A model generated the notes under the pieces. The model made no database searches and was not told where the DNA came from. It saw only the letters and a list, made by a program, of their open reading frames with translations. A DNA stretch of 64,000 nt, taken from the NCBI GenBank assembly GCA_027459665.1, contig DAIDHN010000011.1, positions 1 to 64,000 on the forward strand, given 5' to 3'. Both the position numbers and the translations under genes were made by a program. How positions within the stretch are numbered: the stretch's first letter is position 1; each line of letters starts with the position of its first letter. This stretch comes from Chthonomonadaceae bacterium. GTDB lineage: Bacteria > Armatimonadota > Chthonomonadetes > Chthonomonadales > Chthonomonadaceae. Shown piece by piece: positions 177 through 20,629 of this stretch.

Positions 177-313
177 GGAATTCATCCTTCAATTCCACAA
201 GGCAGAGGGCGCACGGGCTGTCGAATCCTGTGCGCCCTGTTCAGCGTTATTATACCCGTCAACGGGGGTCTGATCTATCAATGACCATGACGCGAACATC
301 CGAAACCGTTGCA

Positions 314-420: not shown

Positions 421-449
421 AGTAGCTTCCTTTTTGTTCCTCTTCTCGG
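419..449. other. attL, left end of the element
   Basis: The AA at 419-420 is the last ComM-encoding dinucleotide and probable crossover core. The following AGTAGCTTCC and TTGTTCCTCTTCT read as the reverse complement of the right end of the element. The exact crossover dinucleotide is inferred from the symmetry. Confidence 0.78.
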
Positions 450-450
450 A

Positions 451-539
451 TATAATATAGCCCACCCTGCGACGGAACAAAAGATTTGCCGTCGCACAGA
501 GGAGGGGCGTATAATATGGCGAACCGTGCGACGGTACAA
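451..539. repeat. 30-bp direct repeat pair with an inverted half, upstream of the integrase
   Basis: Copies at 451-480 and 510-539 match at 25 of 30 positions, both starting TATAATAT and ending in TGCGACGG(A/T)ACAA. Between them, 489-496 is CCGTCGCA, the reverse complement of TGCGACGG, so the first copy can also form a stem with it. The second copy overlaps the integrase start codon (516). This could be an integrase or recombination-directionality-factor binding site, or an autoregulatory operator; each copy also starts with a -10-like TATAAT. Confidence 0.6.
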
Positions 540-1700: not shown

Positions 1701-3402
1701 CAATCTCGACGTAGGTAGTACGGCCTAGAATGTCCTCAATGTCGGCCTCATTCTGACCGGCGTATGAATCTGCGGTTAGTACGTGTCCGCTTCGCAGTAT
1801 CTCGGCTTCGCGGAGTTTCTGCACCTTCGTCTTGTCGCCTTGCTTGATGTCCGTCAAGACGGCGATATGCAAGTGGCGACCGCCGAACAGGATGACGAAG
1901 CTCATAACTTTGTCGAGGCCACCAGCGGGCGCGATAGACCAACGCGGGTCAAGATGGGGTCGCTTGAGCCTCTGAAGCTCGTTGGACAGGGTTTTGAGGA
2001 ACAGATAGTCCGATGGCCCCTCGACGATGAGCGTATGAGCGCCTACGAATAACGTTTGCGTGATGTCGTAACCAAGCGCGCCCTGTAGAGGGAGAATTGT
2101 ATCGGCATCCGTGCTGAGGATACGATCCCCGACCTTTGTTCCTTCGATGATCTCTCGGCCTCGTGCGTCTTTCGAGGTATGGTCTTCCACAGTTCGGGCG
2201 CTCAATATGTGATCCGGGTCGATCATGAACGGAGAGTGGGTGGTATAAATGACTTGGTGCTGCGGACGAAGTTTCTCGTTGATGTAGCGTAGCAGGTCAG
2301 CCTGGGCTGTACCGTGGAGGGACAAACCTGGTTCGTCGAGGAGGATGAAGAGGTTCTTGCCGTAGTGCTTTTTGACCTGTGAAAACCAGACCAGGAAGGA
2401 GAAGAACCAGATGAAACCTGTACTTCGCTCGTCGAAGTTCACCGTTACGCGATGACGCTGGTTCTCGATGCGGGTGCTAAACACGTACCCCTCATTGAAC
2501 GGTGGATGGTCTTGCGGGCGAGCTTGGTCACAACGAAACTGCACTCTAAGGTGCTGGTTCTGACTCCAGTACTCGAAGATTTCGTCGGAAATGCGGTTGG
2601 ATACAGCCTCAAGTTCCATGATGAGTTCCTCAGACGTTCCGGTGTTCGCCACTCCTTCGACACTACTATTGGCGAGATCAAGGAATGCGAGGAAGACTTT
2701 ATCCTTCTCATCGAGCGTGTCTTGCTGTTTGCGTGCGCTTATGTCGTTCAGGGCAGCCCGACCCGGCATCTTGTAATACTCGGAGAAGTAGACAAAGATA
2801 GGTAGCCGATCCGCAAGGAAGTTTCTAATTGCGGCTCCGGCGTCGGAATTTGGATAGCGCTGTTTCAGGGTTGATAGAAGCTGTGTTTGCGCGTCGGAAG
2901 GCGCTTCGATCTCACTGAGCAGGTTCATCAGTTGAGCGATACTATCCGTACTGGGTAGTGCCTCTTTCTCTATCTCACTCAGGTTACTATCCGTAAGCGC
3001 TTTCGAGACGAGCGACTTATCATTGTGCTGAAGAGTCCAGGAACGAGAGTTGGAATAGCCCTTCGTGACCGTTACTGTTTGACTGGTCAACGGATTGATA
3101 CCGAAATACTCCTCGACAGCCAACACATCCGAATCTTCCAGTTCCCAAATTGTGGTGAGTACGTTGTCATGGGTGTCCTGGTTATCGCGGTCACGGTAGG
3201 TCGAAACGTGGCGACGGGGATATTCGGTTTCCGCGAAGTTGGCCTTGTCCTTCTCAACCGGCTTAAGTTTGTAGAGGGACTCAAGGATCGCTGACTTTCC
3301 GGACTCATTCTTACCCACGAGACAAGTTACTTCGTCGATCCTAAACTCAGTCGAGTCCTCGACGCACTTGTAGTTTTGGATTTGAAGTGTCTTGAGAATC
3401 AT
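1606..3402 (-). CDS. OLD-family ATPase with TOPRIM nuclease domain, C-terminus truncated
   Basis: An ABC-type ATPase fused to a TOPRIM domain, as in overcoming-lysogenization-defect (OLD) nucleases and GajA of Gabija. Walker A is VGKNESGKS (about 29-37), Walker B is ILLDEPGLSLHG (about 350) with a following THSPFMID switch. TOPRIM signatures are LIVEGPSD (about 456) and the acidic EADIEDILG near the C-terminus. The last 20 or so residues are antisense to the broken integrase and do not look native, so the 3' end is lost. It starts 5 bp after the methyltransferase stop and is the third gene of a coupled trio. A role in anti-phage nuclease activity is inferred from family and context; truncation may have inactivated it. 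Confidence 0.8.
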   Translation of the reverse strand: MILKTLQIQNYKCVEDSTEFRIDEVTCLVGKNESGKSAILESLYKLKPVEKDKANFAETEYPRRHVSTYRDRDNQDTHDNVLTTIWELEDSDVLAVEEYFGINPLTSQTVTVTKGYSNSRSWTLQHNDKSLVSKALTDSNLSEIEKEALPSTDSIAQLMNLLSEIEAPSDAQTQLLSTLKQRYPNSDAGAAIRNFLADRLPIFVYFSEYYKMPGRAALNDISARKQQDTLDEKDKVFLAFLDLANSSVEGVANTGTSEELIMELEAVSNRISDEIFEYWSQNQHLRVQFRCDQARPQDHPPFNEGYVFSTRIENQRHRVTVNFDERSTGFIWFFSFLVWFSQVKKHYGKNLFILLDEPGLSLHGTAQADLLRYINEKLRPQHQVIYTTHSPFMIDPDHILSARTVEDHTSKDARGREIIEGTKVGDRILSTDADTILPLQGALGYDITQTLFVGAHTLIVEGPSDYLFLKTLSNELQRLKRPHLDPRWSIAPAGGLDKVMSFVILFGGRHLHIAVLTDIKQGDKTKVQKLREAEILRSGHVLTADSYAGQNEADIEDILGRTTYVEIVNKCYALSKSLEGLWQFWPHHNRRRYAAPVL

Positions 3403-3407
3403 CCGGC

Positions 3408-6400
3408 CTAAACCTCCTCGTCGCCGTCGCTGCCCACACGGTACTTGATGTCGTAGTTGATGATGAAGTCTGTTTCATCATCGGTGAAGCCGTAGTACCG
3501 CGCCAACAACCGGTCTATCTCGTCTATGATGGTCTTGGATTGGCTCGGATAGAATGTTTGGTATTCACAGTTATATCGGACGGTTATTTGGGACTTCCGC
3601 CGATAGTCCTCCATAAGTTGGTCGAAAAGGTTACTGCACGTCGCAATTGTCATTTCATCAGGATTCCCTATGGGAAAGCCGCTCACGTCATCGCCAGTGA
3701 GATTCCGGCAGTTTCCCATTGACACGAATCGAAAATAGAAGAGCGAACTGTTCAGTATCGCTCCTATCATCTTACTGATTTCTGCGCTCGTGCCGTAAAT
3801 GTCACGGAAGTGATGAACCGAGCGTTCCTTCGTCTCGGACTTAAAGTACGGCTCAAAGTCCATTGCACGAATCCAGTAAAGAGGGCTTCTGTGATAGTGC
3901 AGAATCGTACCGCCGCGTTTCACAAGGTATTTCTCAACCGTCTGGGCCGTTCGCGCGAGTTTTCGTGTAACTGCCGAAGCATAGTGGGAATCTATCTTGA
4001 CGAATGCCTTATGATCTACCATGTCCGCCTGAACGTATGCGATTTTAGTGAAAAGGCTGGTCCGTTCCTCGTGGCTCCAAAGTAGATAACGTGAAGAGAA
4101 CAATTCCGGCTTGGGTTGAGCCTCGTTTGTTCCAAGTATGATTGTGAGGCGGAGATTAACTCCCTCGAACAGCTTGGATGGTCGGAAGCCAAAGCCGGAA
4201 TACCAGCAGGAGCACAAATGCTTTAGCAGGTAGTTGCGTAAAGTCTCAGTAGTGCTGACACTTATAGCCGCGAGAGGAGTTATAAGGCCAAGCCTTCCTC
4301 TACTTCGGAGCAGTGCTATGGCGCGTTCAGCGACGAAAGCGTATAGGTCTCCGCAGTCCTCCGTGTCAAAGCCAAACACCAGATACTCGCCTTTGACTTT
4401 GTTATAATCCACGAAAGGCGGATTGCCGATTATCGCATCGAACCCGCCATCGGCCATGACATGCGGGAATTGTAGAAACCAGTGAAAGGGCTGGTGAGTG
4501 GCGAGGAAATCCTCTTGCCGCTTTTTGGGAGGGTCCGGGTATTTGCCCGCCGTTCTATAGAGACGCCAGAGGTCTTCATCCAAGTCGGGCTGCACGAGGG
4601 CGCAAGAGCGCAGAATGTCCTCCTTCGTCTGGGTCGGCCTATCGAGAGCCTCGCCAAGTTGCTGCTTGCGGAACAAATCTACTTTGTGACCGTACTCGGC
4701 GACCTGCATTCGCAGTTTCGAGTGATCTTTCTCGAAAGCGAACGTGCTCTTCTCAACCTCGACCACGTGCCACTGCCGGTCAATGTCCTCGATGGATGTG
4801 TAGCCTACCAGTGTGTTTCCGGCGAGGATGTTGAAATCAATATCCGGTAGCGGCTCGATCCCCTGGTTTGGCTTTGATGGGTCGCGGTCGGCATGGGCAA
4901 TCAGATTGAGGAAGAGGCGCAGTTTGCAGATTTCAACGGCTTCCTCCATAATATCCACGCCGTAGAGATTATTGACGATGATTGTCTTGTGAATATAATA
5001 AGAGCGATTCGGGTGTTCGGCGATTCGCGCAATCTCGGCGCGAAAACTCTGTAGCACATCGTCTGTAAGTGTTGCGGGATCGAGGAAAGATTGCTGCGCG
5101 TCCACTTCGTTGACGAACGCGAACTCACCCTTCATGGTCAACGGAACGGATTGGCCTTGCGGTTCGTTTATCGCGAGTACCTCCATGCGGTCAAGGCAGG
5201 CTTCATAGAGTGGATAAAGAATGTTGAGAGCCGCGAACAGAAACGCACCAGAACCACACGTTGGGTCAAGGATGGTGATTCGCTGTAGGCAGCGGAAGTA
5301 AAAGTCCCGGAGAACCGCTGCGTCCTGGCAAGTGTCCACAAAGTCGCGTGCAATGCGCGGCAAATCCAGGTTGTAGGTGATGAAGTCGTTGACGGTGGTG
5401 ATCTTGGCGTCGTGGAAATCCGCTAGGATGGCGGCGTACCGCTGGCGGCGGGCGATAAACTCGCGCCATGTCTCGGTCGGGAGGGCATATCCCAATGGCG
5501 CGCGTTCATTCCAGAAGGCACGTCGGGATACGTCGGCTACGCCTAGTTCGATTTGCGGCGGAAGCGGAAGTTCCGTCCCATGTTTCACGGCAGGATAGAT
5601 GTACGGCTCGATCTCACTGACAGGTATAGGACGTGTAGAGTTTGCAGCGTGCCCGTTGGCTTCGGACAGCATATCGAATATGCGGGGAATCACCGTGTTG
5701 CGGCAGATGTAGCCGGTGATGTCCTCCTTCGTGTAGTAGGCTCCCTTCTCCTTCTGTTCGCTTTTGGAGATGACGTACTTCTCGAAGATGAAGCCGAGAA
5801 CGTCCGGGTTGATCTGGCGCTCGCTGGTCAAAGGCCGGTCGTCAATGTGCCAGGTGTAACGATCAAAGAACTCATACAGCCGCCCGAAAGCGTCATCCTT
5901 GATTTTGATGGCGGCGTGATCGTGCTCTAACTTGTGCGGCATGAAGAGGCCGCCGTTGAGATAGGGAATATCACCGAGAAGGTGCCGCGTCTCCTGGCTG
6001 CGCTGTTCGGCGGGCACGGCGAACCCCTCGAAGAAAAGCGGGCAGAGGAAGTCCTGGTAGTAGCCGTTCCCGCGTGCGGTGTGGTCGTTGAGCTTCTTTC
6101 GGAGGTAGAAAGGATTGCCGTCCAACAGGCCGTTCGACTGGATGAAGTAGATAAACATCAGACGGTTTAGAACGACAGAGGCGTACCACTGGCGGTTTTC
6201 CAGGTTCTCAATGCCCTCGATGAAACCGACGAAGGTATCCTTGTGATCCTTGAACTCGTCATAGAACTTCTTCGTAACGCGCTCGACGTTCACAACCTCT
6301 TGAAGCCTGGCGCGGAACCCCTGGGCCTTCGCTGTCCTTAGCCGTTTGAGCATTTCGTTCTCGAAGTTGCCCGGACGCGCGGTATCGAGAAAGAGTTGTG

Positions 6401-6761
6401 CCATGCGAATGCCGGGCGTGCTTCCCAGCGCCTTGTCCGGGTCTTCGGGCGCAAGAATAAGGAGTGTCCGGGGCAGGTTTACGAAGACGACTGCGAACTG
6501 TGGCTCTGCCCGAAGTTGGCTTTCCACGATGGCGACAGCATCCTGCCAACGGTGTGAGTCCAGTGTAAGGCGGTATATCCATGCGCCCGTGTCCGGCACT
6601 TGCCCGGCTCGGCGAAGTCGCGGCGAAAGGCTCGGTCGGGCGCGCCCCCGGAACGGGTGGTCGGTCATGGTCGGCGGATAGCGAAACCAACCGAGGTCAA
6701 CAAGAGCTTGCGCGAACTGTTGATCGCTGCCAGTGAGAAGTTGAAGGGTCTCGTGGCTCAT
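3408..6761 (-). CDS. Eco57I-type DNA adenine methyltransferase (DrmMI/PglX-like), 1117 aa
   Basis: A large N6-adenine DNA methyltransferase. Motif I is DPTCGSGAFL (about 495-505) and motif IV is IIGNPPFVDY (about 776-785), the NPPF signature of amino-methyltransferases. The long N-terminal half and the C-terminal region after the catalytic core resemble COG1002-type enzymes that carry their own target-recognition part. The chosen ATG at 6761 overlaps the helicase stop as ATGA, so translation is coupled; an upstream start at 6803 is possible. In this setting it would mark self DNA for the linked PLD-helicase, as DrmMI does with DrmD in class 1 DISARM or as in split Type ISP-like systems. No separate specificity subunit is present. 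Confidence 0.85.
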   Translation of the reverse strand: MSHETLQLLTGSDQQFAQALVDLGWFRYPPTMTDHPFRGRARPSLSPRLRRAGQVPDTGAWIYRLTLDSHRWQDAVAIVESQLRAEPQFAVVFVNLPRTLLILAPEDPDKALGSTPGIRMAQLFLDTARPGNFENEMLKRLRTAKAQGFRARLQEVVNVERVTKKFYDEFKDHKDTFVGFIEGIENLENRQWYASVVLNRLMFIYFIQSNGLLDGNPFYLRKKLNDHTARGNGYYQDFLCPLFFEGFAVPAEQRSQETRHLLGDIPYLNGGLFMPHKLEHDHAAIKIKDDAFGRLYEFFDRYTWHIDDRPLTSERQINPDVLGFIFEKYVISKSEQKEKGAYYTKEDITGYICRNTVIPRIFDMLSEANGHAANSTRPIPVSEIEPYIYPAVKHGTELPLPPQIELGVADVSRRAFWNERAPLGYALPTETWREFIARRQRYAAILADFHDAKITTVNDFITYNLDLPRIARDFVDTCQDAAVLRDFYFRCLQRITILDPTCGSGAFLFAALNILYPLYEACLDRMEVLAINEPQGQSVPLTMKGEFAFVNEVDAQQSFLDPATLTDDVLQSFRAEIARIAEHPNRSYYIHKTIIVNNLYGVDIMEEAVEICKLRLFLNLIAHADRDPSKPNQGIEPLPDIDFNILAGNTLVGYTSIEDIDRQWHVVEVEKSTFAFEKDHSKLRMQVAEYGHKVDLFRKQQLGEALDRPTQTKEDILRSCALVQPDLDEDLWRLYRTAGKYPDPPKKRQEDFLATHQPFHWFLQFPHVMADGGFDAIIGNPPFVDYNKVKGEYLVFGFDTEDCGDLYAFVAERAIALLRSRGRLGLITPLAAISVSTTETLRNYLLKHLCSCWYSGFGFRPSKLFEGVNLRLTIILGTNEAQPKPELFSSRYLLWSHEERTSLFTKIAYVQADMVDHKAFVKIDSHYASAVTRKLARTAQTVEKYLVKRGGTILHYHRSPLYWIRAMDFEPYFKSETKERSVHHFRDIYGTSAEISKMIGAILNSSLFYFRFVSMGNCRNLTGDDVSGFPIGNPDEMTIATCSNLFDQLMEDYRRKSQITVRYNCEYQTFYPSQSKTIIDEIDRLLARYYGFTDDETDFIINYDIKYRVGSDGDEEV

Positions 6762-9700
6762 GAGGCCGCCGCCTCCGTTTCGGGAATGAGTTCGAGATAG
6801 CAAACAACCTCAAGCGGCACTGTCTCCGGGTTCTCTGTCGTTACCGCGAGTGTGGGCAGTGTGCTTTCAAGCCATGCAATGAGGATCGTCGGGTTGCGCT
6901 CTTCGATGGCTCGTTTTAGCAGTTGCTCGCCGGTGGTCTTATGGCGCTGTAGGTCAAACTTACCGAGCCGTCGCGCAAGATCGTCGGGCAGAGGTTCGGG
7001 CCGGGCAGCGAAAAACTGCTGTATTCGCTTGTTGATGTGTCCGGCGGGCCAAATCTGCCCGACAGTAGCATCATGGTACTGCTGAACGAGCATCTCACGG
7101 CATCTGCATTCCGCGTCCAAAATGGTTGCCCAATGGATCGCGCGTGGGGAAACATCGGGGCGCGGTCGCTCGGTGTCCGGTGGCTTGGCAGATTCAATGA
7201 GCGGAAGGATTTCGCTCACTTCCTGGCTTGGTGTAAGAGATGGGTTCGCTGCGTCGGGATAAAGCAACCACCAACAGGGGTTCGTTTGTAGATCGCTCCC
7301 GGCGCGGATGCAGAGAAAGAGACTGGCCCTGGTGGCCTTCTTGTTGCTCTGGCATCCGAAAGGTATCTTGGAAACCTGCTCGATCCCGAAGTCCACGAGG
7401 AGTTTGATGGCACGATCAAGCGTGTCGTGGAAAACGTTGATCGGGTTTCGTGCGTCGATCTCGTCAATGACCGACGTGTCGCCCTGCCGGGTTCGTCGGA
7501 GTTCTTCCAAACTAAACACGCTGACCGTTTCGCCGATGACGCTGCTGTCCGTAGGCATATTTGCTTGAATCTGCTCGATCTTGGCCTGTAGGCGCTGCAC
7601 GATCTTGAGTTGCTCTTCTAGCGCGCCTTCGGGAAAGAAGTTGGCAATCGTGATGTCCGTGTGTTCGGAGAAGAGCCGGTCAATACGCCCGTTGCGCTGT
7701 ATCATGCGGACCGGGTTGAAGTGCAGATCGTAGTTGATGAGGTAGCCACAATCCTGCAAGTTCTGGCCCTCAGCGAGAACGTCTGTAGAAATGAGAAGCT
7801 GGATCGGCCGGGAAGGCGGGTCGTCCCGCCGTCCGTTCGCTTTGGGCGCGAAGTCGCGGACAATGCGCGTCTTTTCTGCCGGTCTGAGGCCGCCGACGAT
7901 CATCTCCACGCGGGTGCTACCGATGGCGTCCATGAACTCGTGGTCGGTACTCAATTGTTCGTAAACGTAACGCGCGGTATCACTGTAGAAGGTGAAGAGA
8001 AGTACCTTCTGATCCGGTAGGAGATGCTTGAGTTCGTTTTTGAGACGCGCGATCTTGCCGTCGCGCTCCCCTAGAAGCATTCTGGCTTTGAGCAGGAGGG
8101 GTTCCAGTCGGGCGCGGTCGGCTTTTACGTCGCGTGCTAAGCGGTTGATGTCATAGTCTGACGGATCGCGCTCTACCAGGGCTTGCAGGTACGCAGAGGA
8201 GTCAGCGTCGTCATCGTCAAGCTCGTTGGAAAAGTCCAGTTGGAAGCGGCGGTACTCGTCGTTCGTCAGCCTGCGGCCCTCGCGGAGTGCGGCGACAACT
8301 TGGTCGCTGAACCGAAGAAGACGCTCGCCCGTGGCAAGGAATGATGCAAGGCTGCTCTCAAGCCGTTTAAGCAAGAGTATCTTGAAGAGGGTTTGGAGCG
8401 TCGAATATGTCTGGTTGGCCTGCACGTTTGGTTTGGAAGAATATTGCTCTACGTTGTAGGCTCCGAGAGTGAGTGTCTCGACGGTCTGGGCAATCTGTTC
8501 GTAGGTAAGATCGGTCTGTGTCGTGCTTAATGAGTAATCGAGCGCGGCCATGTGTCGGGTCGGAAAACGGACTTCCTTTCCGGCAATAACGATGGTTTCT
8601 CCTGCCTGTTGCCTGCGCCTTATGTCCAAGCGGCTGCGACAGACCATCGTTTCGAGAAGAAGGTCTGTGGTCGCGGCCTCGCCCTTCTCAACCCGCTTGA
8701 AGAACTCCCGCAGGCTCGCCATACGAAGGTTCGTAGATTGGAAAAAAGCGTCATTGTCGCGGGTCATGAGCCGGTAAAGGCTGTAGAGGTCGCCGATGCC
8801 GTTGTTGATCGGCGTCGCGGTCAACAGGAGGACTTCCTTATCGACGGGACCTCCTTGTAGAACCCGCATGAGATTGGTGAACCGATTCGCGAGTGGATTG
8901 CGGAAGTTATGGGCCTCGTCCACGATGACGATAGCGTACTGCTCAAGTTGGCGGAGCCGGTCATCGGCGTCGGCAGCGGTCGTGTTGCCGAGTGTCTCCA
9001 TGCTCTCAGTGTCCAGCGCAACGCCCTGTTCGCGGCTCGCATCTCGCCAGACGTTTTCAAGTTGGGCAGGGCAGATCACAAGAACCTTGCGCTGGTGGCG
9101 TGGCCGGGTTTGCGCTCTGCGCTGAACCGCGCCAAGCGCAACGAATGTCTTTCCCATTCCCACAGCATCGGCAATGATGCAGCATCGGTGCTCGGCAAGT
9201 ATGCTGAGGGCTGCGTCACGGCCTTCTTGCTGGAAGATGGCGAGGTCAACGTCACCGGCAGAGGGAGTTAGTGACAGAAAACGGTGGCGGTATCGCTCAA
9301 AAAGTGCTTTGGCATATGGATGGAAGGGAGCGAACCGGCGGATGCGTGAACCGTCGAGCCATGCGATAAGGTTGTCTTTGAAGGGTTCACGCTCGGCGTT
9401 GAGTGCCTGCGTCCACTGAGATTGAAACCAGTCACGAAGTCTTGCTACGGCTTCGGAGCGATCTTGAAGCAAGTTAAGCTCGCGTTGCCCAAGCATCCCA
9501 GCCCTTGTGAGGTTGCTGCTCCCGACGATGCCGATGTTCTCATTTACATAGAGTTTGGAGTGTGTTCGGCGGGCAGCTTTGGCTGCGTGAAACGTTGACC
9601 TATTCAGGGCTTGGATAGCCGGGCCGATGCTCTCGTCGTCTGTTGTTCGGTCAAGTGGATCGGCTCCGGTGTCGCGCCAAGTGCGGGCGTCTTCAAACGT

Positions 9701-9940
9701 AATGGTGTCCTGAGCAGTAGGTATATCCGATAGCTCATAGCCGACGAGCAAACGGACTTCGCCGTTCTGAGCGCCATCTGCGAGGGCCGCGATGCCGAAA
9801 GCATCAACGAATGCCGATGAAACGTCGAGATGTCGTGCTTCTGTCAGTGCCTCAACTGCATCGATCATTCGGAACTTGTCGTTGTCTGCTACGAATTGCC
9901 CGGAGAGAGCGGGCGACGTTGAGTCTGCGTGAATGCTCAC
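6758..9940 (-). CDS. PLD nuclease - SNF2-type helicase fusion (DrmD-like), 1060 aa
   Basis: The N-terminal 180 residues form a phospholipase-D-like domain with one visible HxK motif, THSKLYVNEN (H127, K129), followed by GSSNLT. This is the layout of PLD-family nucleases attached to helicases. A superfamily 2 SNF2/HepA-type motor follows: Walker A ADAVGMGKT (about 257-265), DEAH (341-344), LLISTDVLAEGQNLQ and the motif VI QRNGRIDR (about 750). The start is GTG 9940 with AGAGGTGA upstream. It overlaps the methyltransferase by ATGA. The pair looks like the DrmD-DrmMI module of class 1 DISARM with the PLD function (DrmC there) fused on, but drmA and drmB are absent. Probably the DNA-translocating and cleaving effector of a restriction-like system. 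Confidence 0.85.
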   Translation of the reverse strand: MSIHADSTSPALSGQFVADNDKFRMIDAVEALTEARHLDVSSAFVDAFGIAALADGAQNGEVRLLVGYELSDIPTAQDTITFEDARTWRDTGADPLDRTTDDESIGPAIQALNRSTFHAAKAARRTHSKLYVNENIGIVGSSNLTRAGMLGQRELNLLQDRSEAVARLRDWFQSQWTQALNAEREPFKDNLIAWLDGSRIRRFAPFHPYAKALFERYRHRFLSLTPSAGDVDLAIFQQEGRDAALSILAEHRCCIIADAVGMGKTFVALGAVQRRAQTRPRHQRKVLVICPAQLENVWRDASREQGVALDTESMETLGNTTAADADDRLRQLEQYAIVIVDEAHNFRNPLANRFTNLMRVLQGGPVDKEVLLLTATPINNGIGDLYSLYRLMTRDNDAFFQSTNLRMASLREFFKRVEKGEAATTDLLLETMVCRSRLDIRRRQQAGETIVIAGKEVRFPTRHMAALDYSLSTTQTDLTYEQIAQTVETLTLGAYNVEQYSSKPNVQANQTYSTLQTLFKILLLKRLESSLASFLATGERLLRFSDQVVAALREGRRLTNDEYRRFQLDFSNELDDDDADSSAYLQALVERDPSDYDINRLARDVKADRARLEPLLLKARMLLGERDGKIARLKNELKHLLPDQKVLLFTFYSDTARYVYEQLSTDHEFMDAIGSTRVEMIVGGLRPAEKTRIVRDFAPKANGRRDDPPSRPIQLLISTDVLAEGQNLQDCGYLINYDLHFNPVRMIQRNGRIDRLFSEHTDITIANFFPEGALEEQLKIVQRLQAKIEQIQANMPTDSSVIGETVSVFSLEELRRTRQGDTSVIDEIDARNPINVFHDTLDRAIKLLVDFGIEQVSKIPFGCQSNKKATRASLFLCIRAGSDLQTNPCWWLLYPDAANPSLTPSQEVSEILPLIESAKPPDTERPRPDVSPRAIHWATILDAECRCREMLVQQYHDATVGQIWPAGHINKRIQQFFAARPEPLPDDLARRLGKFDLQRHKTTGEQLLKRAIEERNPTILIAWLESTLPTLAVTTENPETVPLEVVCYLELIPETEAAAS

Positions 9941-10090
9941 AGAACAGGATCACCTCTAAGGACTGTGAAGAAGTCCCTACCTTTCGGTTTGTAAGAAAAG
10001 AACTTTGCGCGAATCCCGGATACGAGTCGTCAGCACTCGTCCTTCTGTATATCGTCAGCGTTCTTCTTTGAATATTCACCTTTGATGCTG

Positions 10091-10133
10091 GGCAATCCTC
10101 CGGTAGCGGCTGTTGGGCTGTCGGAGGATTGCC
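10091..10133 (-). terminator. Long hairpin between helicase genes
   Basis: GGCAATCCTCCG (10091-10102) pairs perfectly with CGGAGGATTGCC (10122-10133) over 12 bp with a 19-nt loop. It lies downstream of the UvrD-like gene and upstream of the PLD-helicase gene on the transcribed strand. There is no clear U-run, so it may be a processing or attenuation site rather than an intrinsic terminator. The rest of 9941-10200 shows no gene. Confidence 0.45.
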
Positions 10134-10200
10134 AGACTCTCGCGTCAGCTAACCCGTGCAAGGAGTAAGGTAGGGCGGGCCGCGACGGTCATTCAGGGAT

Positions 10201-12177
10201 TCATGCTCTAGGACGATGGTCTGTCATCGCTAACCCCGTATGTCGTAAGAATCTCGTTAGCGTGGGTATGCGAGGTCTCCCTGTTGCATAGTCTCCTTGC
10301 TGTTTAGTACGATGCGCAGCATAGGAAAAGATAACACTATCTTTTGCCCGTGTGATTGAGACGAAAAACAAGCGCAGTGCTTCTAATTCCTCCTGTCTCC
10401 CTACCTCCAAGCCTGGTATTTGATGGTCTTCAGCTACAGGGATGAATACAACGTCTGCGGAAAGGCCCTTTGCTTTGTGCATCGTCAATATGTGTATTCC
10501 CGGCTCTAGTCCTACGCCGCCTTCGCCGATTGACTGAGCTGCAATTGCTGAAAGCAATCCCGACAGGCTTGAACATTTGGAGCGCTCGATCTCTTCATTC
10601 AACTCCTTCAGCAATGATTCTTTCACGGCTGTGTCACCCGTTACGTAATCAACAGCCCGTTTGATTGTTTCGTCCATAGCTGCTGCTTTGTCTTCACTTT
10701 CTAAAGTGTGGTCATAGATTTCAGAGAGCTTTTCGCGAATACTCGTGACGTTGGTGGCAATTCGTGGGCCGAACTTATCGATCAAACCAGGGTTCTTTTC
10801 TATCTCAGATAAGCCTTCAAAGAACTTCCATTTCTGGGCAACACACAAATCATAGATAGAGCGTAGAACAGTTTCACCGATGCGGTTAGTTCTTTGGAGT
10901 TGAAGTACTATGCGCCATGAAACACTATCGGCCTGTCCAAGACAGAGTGACAGGATCGCTCTTAAAAGAATTCCCGTTTCCGTCTCAAGCGGTTTCTGTT
11001 TTGTATCATCTGCAACCACAAGTCCAACTTTTGCGAGTGCTTCGCGGATGGGCTTGGAATATTTCTCGTTATGATCGCTTCGGAGAAGAATGAGAACTAT
11101 CTCAGGGAAGATTCCTTCTGATGTATACATAGTTTTGATCATCGAAGAGATCCCCGCCGCTTCTGCGAATTGGTCAGCGTAGAGGTGCAGTTGAACAGAA
11201 CCATCTTTACAAGAAGGATCTGGCAGCGTACCTTTGTCCTTTCGGTCGGTATCCAGCCGAATGACGTGATGGGCTAAATCCAGAACCGCTTTAGAGCAGC
11301 GGAAACACCATTGTAGATTGAACTCTTTTGCCCCGTCATAGTCATTGAGAAAATCGCGAATTGCTTGTGGGGTGGCATGACGAAAGCCGTAGATACTCTG
11401 GTCATCATCGCCCGCTCCGGTAACCTCACAACCATGATAGGCTAATTGCTTGACAACTGCTAAGTCACAAGGATTCAAGTCTTGAAACTCGTCAACGATC
11501 AGATGCTGAAAATCGCTTTCAAGCTGGAATTGTGGACTTTGCTCAAGGGCAACTTTGACCTGATATACCATCTCAGCACGCAAGGTGTAGCCGAAGACTT
11601 CTCGATGTCTTATCCAGTGAGAGATAAAAGCAGGGTTTCTCTTTAGATGCGTATCATATTCTGCGCCGGAAAGGTTTTGTTCCCAGGCAGAAGAAAGATG
11701 ATTTAGCTCGGCTTTGACCGTTGCAACATCAGCCTCAACAAGGTTCTTGAGGTCTTCAATGACGACTTGCCTCTCGAAGTAATCATCAGCAACACGGACA
11801 GGGGTGGGGATTGATTCCACGTTGTCACTGTTTTTGATGAGTTGCCGTAGAGCAAAGCCATGCATCGTCGCAACGAATGGAAACTCAGAGGTTTCCTCCT
11901 TTAATGCCTCCTGCAAGTCCTTACGGAGTTGCTGTGCTGCTACCCTGGTAAAGGAGAGCGCTAAAATATTCTGTGGATCAATGCCGTGCTTTTTGACTAG
12001 AGCAAGTGCCTTGCCCTTGAGAGTACGGGTCTTTCCTGTCCCAGGCCCGGCGAACAAAACAGCGTGAGAGCCGCTATGCTCTGCGGCTTTTTTCTGTTGG
12101 TCGTCAAGTCCTGAATACCAATCGGGCATAGTTTCCGAAACCGAGTTTTCTTCCTGGGGCATAGTGCTTTTCTCCAT
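10201..12177 (-). CDS. UvrD/PcrA-like superfamily 1 helicase, 658 aa
   Basis: A 3'-5' DNA helicase of the UvrD/Rep family. Visible motifs are LFAGPGTGKTRTL (Walker A), SFTRVAAQQL (Ia), LIVDEFQDLN (II), GDDDQSIYGFRHA (III), LTMHKAKGLSADVVF (V) and VSITRAKDS (VI). ATG 12177 is chosen; ATG 12162 has a better-spaced GGAG. It is similar in kind to GajB of Gabija but longer, and lies 115 bp downstream of an HsdR-N-type nuclease gene on the same strand. Within this island it more likely acts in phage defence than in housekeeping repair; that is inference from position. Confidence 0.85.
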   Translation of the reverse strand: MEKSTMPQEENSVSETMPDWYSGLDDQQKKAAEHSGSHAVLFAGPGTGKTRTLKGKALALVKKHGIDPQNILALSFTRVAAQQLRKDLQEALKEETSEFPFVATMHGFALRQLIKNSDNVESIPTPVRVADDYFERQVVIEDLKNLVEADVATVKAELNHLSSAWEQNLSGAEYDTHLKRNPAFISHWIRHREVFGYTLRAEMVYQVKVALEQSPQFQLESDFQHLIVDEFQDLNPCDLAVVKQLAYHGCEVTGAGDDDQSIYGFRHATPQAIRDFLNDYDGAKEFNLQWCFRCSKAVLDLAHHVIRLDTDRKDKGTLPDPSCKDGSVQLHLYADQFAEAAGISSMIKTMYTSEGIFPEIVLILLRSDHNEKYSKPIREALAKVGLVVADDTKQKPLETETGILLRAILSLCLGQADSVSWRIVLQLQRTNRIGETVLRSIYDLCVAQKWKFFEGLSEIEKNPGLIDKFGPRIATNVTSIREKLSEIYDHTLESEDKAAAMDETIKRAVDYVTGDTAVKESLLKELNEEIERSKCSSLSGLLSAIAAQSIGEGGVGLEPGIHILTMHKAKGLSADVVFIPVAEDHQIPGLEVGRQEELEALRLFFVSITRAKDSVIFSYAAHRTKQQGDYATGRPRIPTLTRFLRHTGLAMTDHRPRA

Positions 12178-12309
12178 GTTAACCTGATAGAGCAAAGGTT
12201 TATGGATTATGCGTGTCTTTCTGCGGCAAGTTTTGCACAGAATTAGTTCGCACGTCTGTATGTTCGGCGTGTTGCTATTGCTTTCCTGCTCAAGGCAAGA
12301 AAGCAGAAC

Positions 12310-14067: not shown

Positions 14068-15093
14068 TCAGAAGTGTGCTTCAACGTAATTCTTCCAAGC
14101 CTCGAATTCCGAATCACGGAGGCGCGGCACATCTGCCAGGACTTCGATTACTTGGTTCAAATCTCGATGGTTGCCATCCCGAAAGTTGATATAGTGTTCG
14201 TAGACTTCGCCGGGATAGCGCAGCGCGCCGCGAATATCCCCCTCGATTGTCCCGCAAGATACTTTCAATATCGCCCTCGCAAGGTGATTCCAATACGCTG
14301 GCACCCCAACTACATCATTAGTTCGTAAGCTATCCCTGAGCCGAAGAACAAGTTCCTCGGTGTGTGGCCCAACTACGGTTACGCGTACCTCTTTGTCGCG
14401 TAAGTAGCGGCAAACCCTTTTGTAAGTCTCTTGGTCGTTCTGCTGGGCGAACGAATAGCCGATGATGACCAAGTCGGAACAATCCGACAAGGCTTGCGAA
14501 AACCAATGTTCCTCGCGTATCCCATAAAGGTTTGGCGGCTCTGCCTCGAAGTAGTGTAGGGAAGCTGGGGCTATTTCATGCCCACGCATAGCAAGCGGGA
14601 AAAGCTTCGCCAACTCCCAATCAAAGGGGAATTCTGGTGAGTGCCGTCCGTGCATCTCCCGCACAACGAATTGAGGGCAAAACCGCTTCGCGAGCCCGTC
14701 ATAGTTATAGGTCAGTATGATGACCGAGCGCGAAATGCACCGGAAGACGGCATACTGTGCCGGAGCCGCTGCCAACGGACCCGGCTTCGTTATCTCATAC
14801 TCCAGCATCCGGTAAGCCTGTTGGGTTAGCTGCCCAATTGCGCCACGGACAAATGCGGACCATTCGTACCCAGTGGATCGTAGCCAACTACGATTCTGTG
14901 GAGTACGACCTTGCGTACCCACCTCAATAGCGTCGGTGAGCCGGATTACCATGTCTAGGCCACGCCTATTCAGGTTTGCCGGAACCATCGGAGCAGACAC
15001 TCCGGCACCGAGAATGCACGCACATTTCCGTCCGACGAAATCACCGAGTAGGCGCTTTACGCTTTCGGCAGAGAGTTCTTGACTCACGCTCAT
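14068..15093 (-). CDS. SIR2-like domain protein, probable NADase defence effector
   Basis: The Rossmann-type SIR2 fold is visible from CILGAGVSAP (about 26-35), TYNYDG (N130, D132), a catalytic-type HGR (H148) and LVIIGYSFAQQN (about 206). These are the NAD-binding GAGxS, NxD, H and late GYS positions shared with Thoeris ThsA and other prokaryotic SIR2 defence proteins that deplete NAD upon infection. ATG 15093 has AAGGA about 7 nt upstream. The 341 residues hold no other domain I can name. There is no TIR, HerA or Argonaute partner beside it, so it may act alone or with an unrecognised partner in this island. Confidence 0.8.
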   Translation of the reverse strand: MSVSQELSAESVKRLLGDFVGRKCACILGAGVSAPMVPANLNRRGLDMVIRLTDAIEVGTQGRTPQNRSWLRSTGYEWSAFVRGAIGQLTQQAYRMLEYEITKPGPLAAAPAQYAVFRCISRSVIILTYNYDGLAKRFCPQFVVREMHGRHSPEFPFDWELAKLFPLAMRGHEIAPASLHYFEAEPPNLYGIREEHWFSQALSDCSDLVIIGYSFAQQNDQETYKRVCRYLRDKEVRVTVVGPHTEELVLRLRDSLRTNDVVGVPAYWNHLARAILKVSCGTIEGDIRGALRYPGEVYEHYINFRDGNHRDLNQVIEVLADVPRLRDSEFEAWKNYVEAHF

Positions 15094-15242
15094 CACATTG
15101 TCCTTTTCGACGTGTCTTCCCTACATCTACGAAGTGTAGCAGGAGGAACGTAACGGCAACGTGACGAGGCACGAGAAAAATCGTGACGAGGGGTGTTACT
15201 TTCTCATAAACAAAACGTCTGACAAAAGGCTTTCTGGGTGAG

Positions 15243-15521
15243 CTACTGCTCGTCTGCTGATGCGCCGCCAGATTCGTTCAGTAGATCCCGAAAAACCTGC
15301 GCCTTCGGAAACAACTCCCCCACCTCCACCTTGAGCGCCGCCGCGATGCGCATCAGGTTGAGCGCCGCGATGTTATGATCGCCGCGTTCCACGCCCCCAT
15401 AGTAGGAGCGACCGAGACCCGCTTCCGCTGCAAAGCCCTCCTGAGAAATGCCCCGCTCTCGGCGAATCTTTCGTATCTGTTGCCCCAGCGCGACAAGCGC
15501 TGGATGTCTCGCTGTCTTCAT
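15243..15521 (-). CDS. XRE-family helix-turn-helix regulator, 92 aa
   Basis: A Cro/C1-type DNA-binding protein: IRKIRRERGISQEGFAAEAGL is a classic XRE helix-turn-helix, followed by SYYGGVERGDHNI and a short acidic tail. The size matches controller proteins of restriction-modification systems and mobile elements. ATG 15521 has no obvious Shine-Dalgarno. It is divergent from the GNAT gene across a 155-bp spacer filled with GTGGTAT-like repeats that it probably binds. It lies at the top of the minus-strand defence block and may control it. Confidence 0.9.
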   Translation of the reverse strand: MKTARHPALVALGQQIRKIRRERGISQEGFAAEAGLGRSYYGGVERGDHNIAALNLMRIAAALKVEVGELFPKAQVFRDLLNESGGASADEQ

Positions 15522-15546
15522 GTACCCACGATACCCTAGCACGCTA

Positions 15547-15615
15547 TTTTATACCACTCCGTATGATAGCACTCTATTTGATACCACACTATATATTGGT
15601 CATTTGTGGTATAAT
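15547..15615. promoter_or_regulatory. Tandem 15-bp operator repeats and -10 box
   Basis: ATACCAC at 15551, ATAGCAC at 15566 and ATACCAC at 15581 are spaced exactly 15 bp apart within repeats of the form TTTNATACCACTC. An inverted copy, GTGGTAT, lies at 15606-15612 and overlaps a TATAAT (15610-15615) reading toward the GNAT gene. A weaker ATACCCT is at 15531 next to the XRE start. The layout fits a regulator that represses both divergent genes; XRE binding is inferred. Confidence 0.6.
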
Positions 15616-15622
15616 GGAGATC

Positions 15623-15669
15623 ACGGCAAAGCCGTCAGGTGCCTCCCTCGTTGGGAGGCAGGAAGGGAG
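15623..15669 (+). promoter_or_regulatory. Structured 5' leader of the GNAT gene
   Basis: Two hairpins follow the TATAAT: ACGGC-AAA-GCCGT (15623-15635) and TGCCTCCC (15640-15647) with GGGAGGCA (15653-15660). The Shine-Dalgarno GGAAGGGAG (15661-15669) lies directly after. The CCTCCC arm could pair with either GGGAGG or the Shine-Dalgarno, so the leader may tune translation. I see no match to a known riboswitch. Confidence 0.4.
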
Positions 15670-15676
15670 ATCCTAC

Positions 15677-16348
15677 ATGCTTCCGCTCTGGAAGGACGCC
15701 GATAGCGGCGTTCGAGTGGTTCGATTGACTGAAACTGAGGAGATTGAAACGCTGGTGGGTCTGTTCGAGCAAATCGCAGCGGATGAAAACTGGCAACCAG
15801 ATGGGGCGTTACGCTTCTGGTTGGATCGCTCCGTCTTCTTCGCATTGGAAGTCAATGGAAAACTTGCTGGCGGTCTGCAACTCGTGCGACCGGACTTGAA
15901 CGGAACGTTACCATGCCAGACCGTCTGGCCCGAAGTGCAGATCGCTAATCCTAGACGATGCGCTCATGTGGCTATTCTGGCTCTGGACGATGAATTCCGA
16001 GGACAGGTTATGCTCTTTTGGCGGCTTGCTGTCGAGATGTGGCGCTACTGTGTGGGGGAGAACATAGCAACGCTGTATATCGAGGTGACGCCTCGCGTCC
16101 TTCCTCTGTACCGTCGCCTGGGTTGGCCGCTCCAGATCCGGGGCGATCTGCGGCTTCATTGGGGAGAAGACTGTTACTGTTGCTCACTCGGCATTCCAGA
16201 AGTGGCCGAAGCGCTCCTTCGGCGATCAGAGCGCTCCTCATACTACAGGCAGATCATCTCACAGGCGTTTCGGGTAACAATTCCAGTTCGAGAGATTCGC
16301 CGGGCAGATGTGGTAAAGGAGGCAGTTCAGGTATACGCGACCTGCTGA
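15677..16348 (+). CDS. GNAT-fold acyltransferase, FeeM-like, 223 aa
   Basis: The C-terminal half, including RCAHVAILALDDEFRGQ and TLYIEVTPRVLPLYRRLGW (about 112-168), matches the GNAT/FeeM layout, in which a beta strand is followed by an acyl-CoA loop and a late YrrLGw motif. FeeM enzymes make N-acyl amino acids and are structurally related to LuxI, but the substrate here cannot be told. The chosen ATG 15677 has GGAAGGGAG at good distance. The gene is transcribed away from XRE and under the tandem repeats, suggesting regulated expression. It is the only obvious metabolic cargo of the element. Confidence 0.6.
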   Translation: MLPLWKDADSGVRVVRLTETEEIETLVGLFEQIAADENWQPDGALRFWLDRSVFFALEVNGKLAGGLQLVRPDLNGTLPCQTVWPEVQIANPRRCAHVAILALDDEFRGQVMLFWRLAVEMWRYCVGENIATLYIEVTPRVLPLYRRLGWPLQIRGDLRLHWGEDCYCCSLGIPEVAEALLRRSERSSYYRQIISQAFRVTIPVREIRRADVVKEAVQVYATC

Positions 16349-16357
16349 CAATCTACG

Positions 16358-16409
16358 CATCCTCGCAAGCGGCTCGTCATTGACGTAGCCGCTTGTCTGC
16401 ATGAGGATG
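16358..16409 (+). terminator. Two-part hairpin after the GNAT gene
   Basis: CAAGCGGCT (16366-16374) pairs with AGCCGCTTG (16387-16395), and the outer CATCCTC (16358-16364) pairs with GAGGATG (16403-16409). The stem is strong but lacks a U-run. Its outer arm overlaps the GAGGA that serves as Shine-Dalgarno for the next small gene, so it may also affect that start. Confidence 0.4.
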
Positions 16410-16414
16410 TGTGT

Positions 16415-16660
16415 ATGTTTTCTGGACTGGTCGCCTTCCTCTACTACGGCTGCTTTCTGTTACTCGTCGGTCTGGTTCTGTTCATCGCCTTGAAAGGTAG
16501 CCGTCGCTCGCATGGGCTAACCAGATTGCAATGCACTTTCTTTCTGCTCACTCTGTCTCTGTTGATCTGGCAAAGCACACTCTTTCTGGAAACCCGAATA
16601 GCGCTGCTGCGTTGGGAAGAAAGTATCCTCTGCTCTTTCCTGTGCCGGTTCCGCCGATGA
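16415..16660 (+). CDS. Possible small single-pass membrane protein
   Basis: ATG 16415 has GAGGA 7 nt upstream. The first 28 residues form a strong hydrophobic segment (FLYYGCFLLLVGLVLFIAL) followed by basic residues. From about residue 42 the frame is antisense to the broken coupling-protein gene and is probably not native. It is either a truncated small membrane protein or a chance frame. Function unknown. Confidence 0.35.
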   Translation: MFSGLVAFLYYGCFLLLVGLVLFIALKGSRRSHGLTRLQCTFFLLTLSLLIWQSTLFLETRIALLRWEESILCSFLCRFRR

Positions 16661-16883
16661 TGACGCCGTGCTGTAGGGTTGCCTCGCGGGAAAGCGTGAT
16701 CGCCTTCCCTCGGTGATGTCCGATGGAGAACCCGCCCGATTCCGGCGCTCGCAGGTATCGGCGCGGCGGGTGTCCCCACCCGGCGCTACCGTGAGTTGTG
16801 GGGAGAACAAACCGCAAGCGACAGAAAATGGTTACGGCGAACGTACAGAGCAAGACGAAGATCCGAAACAGATCAAGCTTCAT
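16548..16883 (-). pseudogene. VirD4/TraG-type coupling protein, truncated after Walker A
   Basis: An N-terminal membrane segment (IFVLLCTFAVTIFC) is followed by GFSIGHHRGKAITL and HGVIIGGTGTGKSRGYFLPN, the Walker A region of type IV coupling proteins. The protein stops about 20 residues later, at 111 residues instead of roughly 500-700, so the ATPase is not functional. The ATG at 16883 overlaps the relaxase stop as ATGA, the normal mob-tra order. Loss of this protein means the element cannot encode its own coupling ATPase. Confidence 0.78.
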
Positions 16884-17677
16884 TCCCTCCCCCGGTCGGC
16901 ATCCCGCTCCGTGTGCTGCTTGCGATCCAGTTCCGCAGCGTCTCGGTGTAGTTTCTCAGTCTCTCGTAGCGCCTGGTCATACGCAGTAATAGCCTCAAGG
17001 CAGATTCGTTCTCCCGGCGTAGGCGCTCGTTCTCCTGGATAATCTTCTCTCGCTCTTCTTTCCATCTGCGCCGAAAAGCTTCTCTGCGCTCGCGGGCTTT
17101 CTCGCTCCGCTCGGTCCTGCGAAAAAGTGCGGTGATGTTGCGCGTTCGCTTGGTATCGTTCTCTTGCACGCTCTTTCTTTTCCAGGTGATCGCGTTCATT
17201 TCGGCCAAATTCCCGGCAATATATCAGGTTCCAAGCCTCATCTAACGTCCGGAATTCGCGCGGCGAAAGGTCGAGCTTTCTCCCGTTCGTTTGCCGGGCG
17301 TCAATCCAGACATGAGCATGGGTGTAGTCGGTGTTCTGGTGAACAAACCCGATGGCCCGCGTACCTGGAAGTGTCGTGTTCAGCCATTCTCTTACCATCC
17401 CTGCCGCTACCGTGCCTGGTGTCTTTACCTCGAAAGAGAGAAGGGTTCGGTAGTGCGTTCTCCCTTTCCCTTCTGCCTCCTCACGAAGCTGGGCATACAA
17501 TACAAGGTTCTCTCTTAACTCCTCAAACGTGGTGGCTCGCCTTACCTCTTCCGGCAACCCTTGAGAGACAAACCCGCACACGCCGCCCTCCTCCCCTCGC
17601 TCTCTTACCGCCGATGGTCGGCTGATATAGGCGACGTGTGCGCCTCCTGCGCCCCGTGTCCCGACTGTGAAACGCAG
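16880..17677 (-). CDS. Relaxase (MobA-like, MOB_P-type), likely CTG start
   Basis: Nicks and carries the transferred strand at oriT. HYRTLLSFE and THAHVWIDAR (the HxH metal site, motif III) are visible, then DEAWNLIYCREFG and a charged coiled C-terminus. A GTG at 17581 would cut off the N-terminus. In the same frame upstream, FTVGTRGAGGAHVAYISRPSA looks like the natural relaxase N-terminus. No ATG/GTG/TTG precedes it, but a CTG at 17677 has GGGGAAGGGGG upstream, so I place the start there (265 aa). It follows mobC by 17 nt. The catalytic tyrosine may be the one in AYISR. Confidence 0.75.
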   Translation of the reverse strand: MRFTVGTRGAGGAHVAYISRPSAVRERGEEGGVCGFVSQGLPEEVRRATTFEELRENLVLYAQLREEAEGKGRTHYRTLLSFEVKTPGTVAAGMVREWLNTTLPGTRAIGFVHQNTDYTHAHVWIDARQTNGRKLDLSPREFRTLDEAWNLIYCREFGRNERDHLEKKERARERYQANAQHHRTFSQDRAERESPRAQRSFSAQMERRAREDYPGERAPTPGERICLEAITAYDQALRETEKLHRDAAELDRKQHTERDADRGRE

Positions 17678-17694
17678 GAACGTTCCCCCTTCCC

Positions 17695-18078
17695 CTATTT
17701 CATCCTCCGCTTAACCTCTATTGCCAGCGCCTTCACCATGCGGGCGGTCTGCCGGATCTCGGCAAGCGTCGGCGGGACAACCGGCGCTCCCTTCGCGGCG
17801 GCGTTCAGCCGGTGTGCGATCTGGTTGAGATTGACTCCGGCCTTTTCCAACAAAAACCGTGTCCGGAAGAGTTCTTCCCGGTCGCGTAGTGTCGGTGGGT
17901 AGCGCCGCTCGATGACGGTTCGCGCGAGATACCGGGATATAGAAATATCTGCCTCTTTTGCCTCACGGCGAAACGTCTCGCGCTCCGGAGCGGTGACGCG
18001 AACAGTGAGCCTGTACGGGTAGTTTTTGGCCGGTCTATATCGGGGTTTCTGGTGGTCCGGTAGAGAAGTGCTTTCCAT
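17695..18078 (-). CDS. MobC-like relaxosome accessory protein, 127 aa
   Basis: A small basic DNA-binding protein: RLTVRVTAPERETFRREAKEA resembles a ribbon-helix-helix N-terminus, and LEKAGVNLNQIAHRLNAAAKG is the characteristic segment of MobC/TraJ-type mobilization proteins. It lies between oriT and the relaxase and is transcribed away from oriT, as in IncP/IncQ-like mobilization modules. It would bind oriT and help the relaxase melt the nic site. Confidence 0.88.
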   Translation of the reverse strand: MESTSLPDHQKPRYRPAKNYPYRLTVRVTAPERETFRREAKEADISISRYLARTVIERRYPPTLRDREELFRTRFLLEKAGVNLNQIAHRLNAAAKGAPVVPPTLAEIRQTARMVKALAIEVKRRMK

Positions 18079-18152
18079 GCGCCATGCAGGGTAAGGGAGA
18101 CAAACGGATAGTACAAGTGACTTAAAGCAGAACCGAGGTAGATTGTGTTGTG

Positions 18153-18185
18153 GGGCGCTGACGTCAGCGCCCGTATCCTGCCTTC
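18153..18185. other. Probable oriT with IncP-like nic sequence
   Basis: A perfect 20-bp palindrome lies at 18153-18172 (arms GGGCGCTGAC/GTCAGCGCCC). It is followed by TATCCTGC (18174-18181), which fits the YATCCTG/Y nic consensus of the IncP (RP4) relaxase family; cleavage would fall after G18180. Its place just upstream of mobC and the relaxase gene supports oriT. The rest of 18079-18348 holds no gene. Confidence 0.75.
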
Positions 18186-18215
18186 ACCCCGTTTTGCAAC
18201 ATTTCCGGCTCCCGA

Positions 18216-18286
18216 TTTTTCCACAGTTCACCGCTCGCTTTGGGGCATCTGGAAAAGCCCCGCGCTCGCGTGGTCCTGTGGAAAAA
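18216..18286. repeat. Inverted pair of DnaA-box-like sequences
   Basis: TTTTTCCACAG (18216-18226) and its exact reverse complement CTGTGGAAAAA (18276-18286) flank a GGGGC/GCCCC hairpin. The core TTTCCACA resembles a DnaA box, and a perfect TTATCCACA lies at 19624-19632. These could help replication of an excised form or bind a regulator; no rep gene is visible. Confidence 0.4.
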
Positions 18287-18348
18287 CCATTTCGCAGTGG
18301 TCAGATCTGCTTGCGCTTCAATGTAGGTTATGGCAGTTTTCTTCCGCT

Positions 18349-18783
18349 ATGTCTGACTTTGATTCAAGAGATGCAGGGCGGAAGCAAGAATTCGGTTCCC
18401 TGGCGGATCTATTCGCCGATGCCGAACTCGTCTTTGTCTATACGCGGGCACAGGCTATTGAAGACGGCACTCTAGTAGATGTGTCCAAGATGGCAAAAGA
18501 AGCAGGCTTTGTCTATCCGGTGGCTGTAACCGCTACGCTGTGGGCCGATATTGAGGCGATCTCCGAGGAGTATGCTGAATTTGAAGACGTTCAAGGGCGC
18601 TTGTGGGATGTGCTTTACATGGGGCATATGGCGATCCTGCACAGCAAAGGTGACGAGTCTGAGCTTCTCTACAAGCTCATTCTTCACACTGGAGGAAACG
18701 AGGAGTACACAGTCAAACTCGTCTGCGGCCCCGGCGACAATCGAGAGCCGGTGATTACCTTGATGCAACCGGACGAAGATTAA
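18349..18783 (+). CDS. DUF6573-like protein, 144 aa
   Basis: Recognisable as the plasmid/ICE-associated DUF6573 type from the opening SLADLFADAELVFVYTRAQAIEDGTLVDVSKMAKEAGF and the following TLWADIEAI. Function is unknown for the family. ATG 18349 is chosen because the upstream frame does not look coding. It converges on RadC with only 3 bp between stops. Such proteins often travel with antirestriction or mobilization genes, which fits the position next to oriT. Confidence 0.7.
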   Translation: MSDFDSRDAGRKQEFGSLADLFADAELVFVYTRAQAIEDGTLVDVSKMAKEAGFVYPVAVTATLWADIEAISEEYAEFEDVQGRLWDVLYMGHMAILHSKGDESELLYKLILHTGGNEEYTVKLVCGPGDNREPVITLMQPDED

Positions 18784-19720: not shown

Positions 19721-19752
19721 CGACAGAAGAGGAACAATGACGAAGCTACTAA
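19721..19752. other. attR, right end of the element
   Basis: AGAAGAGGAACAA (19725-19737 or so) and GAAGCTACT (19742-19750) mirror the left end. The AA at 19751-19752 is the other copy of the probable crossover dinucleotide, directly followed by ComM codons for KLYSIAGLL. Confidence 0.78.
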
Positions 19753-20629
19753 GCTTTACTCGATAGCAGGTCTGCTGAATTCGGAAAGAGCCTTGATCAA
19801 TACACGGCCGTTTCGATCTCCTCATCATACAGTGAGTACTGCAGCACTGGTGGGAGGAGGAAGTGTGCCGCGGCCAGGCGAAGTAAGCCTCGCACATCAT
19901 GGCGTTTTGTTTATGGATGAGCTGCCCGAATTTCCACGCGATGGACTGGAGGTGCTGCGGCAGCCGCTGGAAGACGGGGTAGTGCACATAGCCCGCGTAA
20001 GCGCCTCCTATGCATTTCCTGCACTGTTTACGCTGGTTGCAGCTATGAACCCGTGCCCCTGCGGTTTTTATGGCGACAAGTTTCGTGAGTGTACATGCAC
20101 CCCAGAAGCGGTGAAAAAATATCAGAAACGCATCTCTGGGCCATTGCTCGACCGCATTGACTTGCACATCGAAGTACCGCGGCTTTCAGAGGATGAGCTG
20201 CTGCAAATGCAGCAGGGAGAGGCATCTGAAAAAATACGTGAACGGGTTTGCAAGGCCAGAAAAGTGCAGGAAAATCGATTCACGCATCCTCTGCCCCAAA
20301 CTCCTTCGCATTACACAGAAGATACACCACCGCATCCCGCAGACCAGGCAGCTCAGAAAACGCCCAGCCCCCAGGCCAATCGGCCTGTTTATTGCAATGC
20401 CCAGATGGGGCCGGCTGAAATTCGCGCATACTGCCAGCCCGATGAACCCGTAAAAGAACTGCTTAGGCAGGCCATTCAGAACCTGGGTCTCTCAGCCCGT
20501 GCATACGACCGACTGCTGAAGGTAGCCAGAACCATTGCAGACCTGGAAAACGCAGAGCACATTACCACTTCTCATGTGGCAGAAGCCATCAATTACCGAA
20601 GCCTGGACCGCAAATACTGGGGCGGGTAA
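19751..20629 (+). pseudogene. comM: comM 3' part, separated from its 5' end by the element
   Basis: Encodes the second two-thirds of ComM/YifB: LYSIAGLL, FRSPHHTVS, LFMDELPEF (Walker B), AAMNPCPCGF (cysteine loop), GPLLDRIDLHIEVP and the C-terminal Mg-chelatase-like domain ending SLDRKYWGG. The frame is intact from the element border to the stop, and would rejoin the left fragment exactly if the element excised. No promoter or start for this part alone is evident. Loss of ComM is expected to reduce natural transformation efficiency. Confidence 0.9.

Follow-up and report, generated by a model that had tools for sequence, protein, structure and literature searches.

A very probable MOB_P-type origin of transfer beside mobC and a relaxase gene in a member of the Armatimonadota

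The window analysed here is a 64,000-nucleotide stretch of a Chthonomonadaceae genome (contig DAIDHN010000011.1, positions 1 to 64,000), the host assembly being a 3.67-Mb draft in 118 contigs. Near its left end comM/yifB, a gene that is whole in most members of the family, is split by an island of ~19.3 kb that holds a mobilisation module. The features of the module and of the island around it are as follows.

311–433, plus strand: comM/yifB fragment to the left of the island (profile positions 212–252)
486–1700, plus strand: truncated serine recombinase, presumed to be the integrase (PF00239, 2.7e-12), adjoining the left island junction
16605–16883, minus strand: N-terminal remnant of a VirD4/TraG-type coupling protein (T4CP), reaching just past Walker A, the remainder missing
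16880–17698, minus strand: MOB_P-like relaxase, 272 aa plus stop (PF03432), following mobC and overlapping its stop codon
17695–18078, minus strand: mobC, encoding a NikA-like ribbon-helix-helix relaxosome accessory protein of 127 aa (PF21983 NikA-like, 1e-9; PF05713 MobC, 1.9e-5)
18153–18172, plus strand: inverted repeat of the proposed oriT, a perfect 20-bp palindrome whose right arm ends 8 nt from the predicted nick
18174–18181, plus strand: putative nic sequence TATCCTG|C, TATCCTGC, with predicted cleavage at G18180/C18181; conserved in the related loci L005, L007 and L023
18216–18226 and 18276–18286, no strand assigned: second inverted repeat, TTTTTCCACAG...CTGTGGAAAAA, with perfect 11-bp arms and a 49-nt spacer
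18337–18783, plus strand: DUF6573 protein (PF20213, 1.9e-22), which also adjoins the module in the plasmid-like relative L005
18787–19353, minus strand: RadC/JAB-domain protein of the island (PF04002, 4.6e-45)
19742–20629, plus strand: C-terminal part of comM/yifB to the right of the island (profile positions 245–499 at 19742–20599)

The first-pass annotation had placed a probable origin of transfer (oriT) at 18150–18290, describing a perfect 20-bp palindrome followed by an IncP-like YATCCTG/Y sequence, just upstream of mobC and the relaxase gene. Each of these elements is present: the palindrome GGGCGCTGACGTCAGCGCCC is followed on its 3' side by G18173, TATCCTG (18174–18180) and C18181, and mobC starts 102 bp from the nick position. 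The octamer agrees with (C/T)ATCCTG(C/T), the published MOB_P nick consensus, whose ATCCTG is needed by RP4 TraI, VirD2 and Tfs4 VirD2 (PMC3772185). As single-stranded DNA the palindrome has a hairpin energy of -10.5 kcal/mol (z -2.7), and across the 3.67 Mb of the genome the 29-bp block of palindrome plus nic sequence is single-copy even when as many as two mismatches are tolerated. The right-hand limit of 18290 also takes in the second, separate inverted repeat. Its 11-mer TTTTTCCACAG occurs twice in the window, with no further copies there, and is absent from L005 and the other plasmid-like relative, L027; the repeat contains the DnaA-box-like TTTTCCACA.

YATCCTGY is frequent in the window, with 18 copies against 8 expected, so that the motif alone carries little meaning, and a palindrome (a terminator stem, for example) might have come to lie beside an octamer by accident. 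That reading is hardly credible. Apart from the palindrome at 18153–18172, the 64 kb hold no perfect palindrome of 16 bp or longer, and of the 18 octamers all but that at 18174 lack a palindrome of 12 bp or longer ending 0–10 nt upstream. A set of 1500 first-order Markov windows yielded seven cases of YATCCTGY with a palindrome of 16 bp or longer ending 0–10 nt upstream, while a 20-bp palindrome at exactly one offset is expected ~8.4 x 1.0e-6 times per window (~1e-5). The palindrome lacks a following T-run and is passed over by a terminator scan, and the conservation of the site in other loci in itself refutes chance.

Those other loci come from a search of 291 Armatimonadota genomes for mobC–relaxase loci, which found three homologous loci: L023/L027 in G122, a genome of a different Armatimonadota family, and L005 and L007 in G012 and G003, respectively. 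Upstream of mobC in L023 lies GGGTGCGCTAGCGCACCC-G-TATCCTGCCCTCACCC, with an 18-bp perfect palindrome in the same place and register before TATCCTGCC. Relative to the palindrome of the window, four of the nine pairs (4, 7, 8 and 9) are changed on both sides, and are thus compensated; as only these two loci carry the palindrome, the compensation amounts to one independent comparison. In the L005/L007 lineage TATCCTGCC is kept at the equivalent place and strand, with no palindrome or repeat at it.

This pattern also bears on whether the palindrome is mainly an operator or promoter element through which MobC represses its own gene, as O_M does in the IncU plasmid RA3, with YATCCTGY close by through coincidence. 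The palindrome does sit in the upstream region of mobC, and in RA3 the ribbon-helix-helix accessory protein acts through a palindrome to repress the promoter of its own gene (PMC4175270). Regulation of mobC would, however, leave unexplained why the 8-nt spacing is kept in L023 despite the changed palindrome sequence, and is equal in R751 and R64, or why TATCCTGCC persists in L005 and L007 where the palindrome is lacking. As the main explanation an operator is therefore improbable, although the palindrome may serve both as operator and as part of oriT.

The characterised systems closest to the window are those of IncP, IncI1, IncU and Helicobacter pylori tfs4. The end of the repeat lies exactly 8 nt from the nick in the window, in L023, in R751 (IncP) and in R64 (IncI1), and the polarity of the nic sequence is uniform across the window, its relatives, R751 and R64, being upstream of mobC, traJ or nikA and on the strand opposite that gene. 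The oriT of R751 and RP4 shares with the window a YATCCTG|C nick with the inverted repeat ending 8 nt before it, and R751 also has the nic strand opposite the accessory gene and the order oriT–accessory–relaxase–T4CP (TraJ–TraI–TraG). It differs in its repeat, which has 19-nt arms (17 of 19 positions paired) and a 2-nt spacer where the window has perfect 10-nt arms and no spacer, and in its relaxase of 747 aa, compared with 272 aa. In R64 (NikA–NikB), the repeat likewise ends 8 nt before CATCCTG|T and the accessory protein is of the NikA family; unlike the window, no T4CP lies beside nikB in the stretch read, and NikB has 899 aa. IncU RA3, compared by its published description, resembles the window in having oriT upstream of a bicistronic mobC–relaxase operon and a MobC with the motif LxxugxNlNQiaxxLn, whereas the operator of its MobC is an imperfect palindrome lying apart (PMC4175270). 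The VirD2 oriT of Helicobacter pylori tfs4, also on a chromosomal island and upstream of the relaxase gene, has a perfect repeat directly before TATCCTGC, but belongs to another relaxase branch and phylum, and nicking there has been shown in vitro (PMC3772185). The correspondence with R751 and R64 in nick motif, 8-nt distance and polarity, a comparison that the first-pass annotation had suggested, supports at the level of sequence its prediction of a nick after G18180.

Assignment of the module to MOB_P draws on both of its proteins. The relaxase matches PF03432 alone in Pfam (E 8.8e-6 to 1.3e-5, above the gathering score), with no match to PF03389 or PF01076; these three families we take to stand for MOB_P, MOB_Q and MOB_V, respectively. 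Near its N-terminus a candidate motif I contains Tyr24 within AYISRP, as is typical of MOB_P relaxases, and motif III reads HQNTDYTHAH, a MOB_P-like HxNTDxxHxH whose three histidines are invariant in four sequences. Aligned with VHNDTDNLHIH of R751 and VHTDTDNLHVH of R64, it has the first Asp replaced by Asn (HxD to HxN). MobC of the window carries LEKAGVNLNQIAHRLN, the motif by which RA3 MobC is grouped with the accessory proteins of MOB_P relaxases (PMC4175270). The MOB_P type proposed at first pass is thus supported by the NikA-like accessory protein and its motif, by PF03432 and by motif III, for a relaxase that is a remote and small branch. Beyond motif III its similarity to RP4-type and R64 relaxases is weak (hhalign probability <10%, single sequences), and its best match to NCBIfam MobP1 scores 21.1 bits (E=1.7e-4) against a cut-off of 200, for which reason it is classed as MOB_P-like and not as MobP1. 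An AlphaFold model of low confidence (pLDDT 64) finds as its best solved-structure matches two relaxases, R1162 MobA (2ns6, E 1.1e-3) and the staphylococcal 4ht4.

Taken together, the nick consensus, the 8-nt spacing, the polarity next to accessory and relaxase genes, and the compensated palindrome in a distant locus make it very probable that a MOB_P-type relaxosome has its origin of transfer at 18153–18181; judged as a sequence, the identification as oriT is secure, and G18180|C18181 is a strong prediction for the nick. By analogy with IncP, IncI1 and IncU, a MobC dimer would bind oriT on or close to the palindrome and bring in the relaxase, which, using Tyr24 and a metal-binding HxH, would cut the plus strand between G18180 and C18181 and remain on the 5' end at C18181. 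If the strand exits as from RP4-type oriTs, it would leave from C18181, with the DUF6573 gene and radC entering first and mobC and the relaxase gene last.

Expression of the relaxase would be unusual, in that its reading frame has no ATG, GTG or TTG from the stop upstream down to Tyr24, the candidate catalytic residue. The apparent start is an ATA at 17698–17696, with GGAGG 5 nt upstream (17708–17704) and a 2-nt overlap with the TAG stop of mobC (ATAG). L023 has ATA at the equivalent position, likewise overlapping the mobC stop, while the aligned start in L003 and L004 is ATG. AUA starts are known for a few bacterial genes, and in Staphylococcus aureus reporters non-AUG starts give ~10% of AUG output, one AUA start reaching up to 30% in rich medium (PMC13009471). 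Two other candidates were considered. A CTG at codon 12 of the relaxase is CTC in L023, and hence is not common to both. MobC and the relaxase might instead be joined by a programmed frameshift, the relaxase frame being -1 relative to mobC in all loci, but initiation at ATA is preferred since the loci have no common slippery sequence and L003 and L004 have ATG there. A conserved AUA start, as read from two sequences, is the simplest reading. A more speculative extension, towards which we lean slightly less than evenly, is that this Armatimonadota MOB_P branch starts at AUA, preceded by a good Shine-Dalgarno sequence, as a built-in brake, coupling a low relaxase level to translation of mobC. 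Standard gene finders would place such a start too late, with loss of the candidate catalytic tyrosine.

The island itself looks partly broken. EATK codons occur at both of its junctions in differing sequences, and the assembly yielded no comM sequence from before profile position 212. The serine recombinase is without its C-terminal half when set beside homologues whose frames span 675 and 696 aa, which makes excision doubtful; it ends directly against the 3' end of the gene for an OLD-like ATPase. For a possible integrative mobilizable element, the split comM and the recombinase at one end of the island count in favour, but the truncation of that recombinase and the missing 5' part of comM count against. 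The T4CP remnant (approximately the first 94 residues) is 43% identical to the T4CP of L027 over 88 aa (E 2e-9), with homology ending at 16605, and searches of the host genome found no further T4CP (PF02534) and no VirB4 (PF03135). Transfer at present would thus need help in trans. Other island genes include a FeeM-like protein (N-acyl amino acid synthase) at 15563–16348, between an XRE regulator and the T4CP remnant, and at 1606–12195 the OLD-like ATPase, a type IIG restriction-modification protein, an SNF2/PLD helicase and a UvrD/GajB-like helicase, which match defence-system profiles.

As the element around oriT is partly degraded, present-day activity is not implied, and it is nearly an even call whether the module is dead and the oriT a relic, with the relaxase not made for want of a standard start codon. 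Such a view concerns present activity and not the identity of the site. It draws on the T4CP that stops after Walker A, the truncated integrase, the incomplete comM, the lack of VirB4 by PF03135 and the ATA start. Against it, mobC, the oriT and the relaxase frame with its motifs are intact, a trans-acting helper would be enough for mobilisation, and the ATA is common to L023, whose T4CP is intact, so that ATA alone is no sign of decay. The module would have reached the Armatimonadota chromosome on the island inside comM, and may now be mobile with a helper system supplying T4CP and T4SS in trans, or not at all.

This type of oriT is already known from IncP and IncI; what is new is its occurrence in an under-described phylum. 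The host, which had been thought to look non-proteobacterial, does belong to the Armatimonadota, and the IncP/IncI-type design of repeat, 8 nt and YATCCTG|Y is thereby extended to this little-studied group, with the nick predicted to the base and the palindrome present, in compensated form, in a second family. Searches further afield returned little. Among nic-block matches with one mismatch in the 291 genomes, only the true one, in G122, has a palindrome ahead of the motif; the one match from an exact search of IMG/VR has none. Comparison of the oriT with plasmids by blastn gave chance matches alone. Single-sequence and profile searches with the relaxase (IMG/VR, GTDB contigs and plasmids) found little beyond the Armatimonadota loci, with one remote match in Acidobacteriota and no homologue in the plasmid collection.

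Intact versions of the module on the plasmid-like elements L005 and L027, in both of which the order oriT–accessory–relaxase–T4CP is complete, allow the prediction to be tested. L005 encodes ParA, MobC, the relaxase and a full T4CP, and L027 has mobC, the relaxase, a full T4CP and a ParA-like ORF. Besides the MOB_P module, both elements carry a MOB_F TrwC-like relaxase, at 13495–16230 in L005 and at 3–2288 in L027, where the sequence appears as two overlapping matches, perhaps through a frameshift. Near the module of L027, at 14273–16820, lie ORFs that by eye resemble a mercuric-reductase-type flavoprotein, an ArsR-like regulator and a metal-transport protein.
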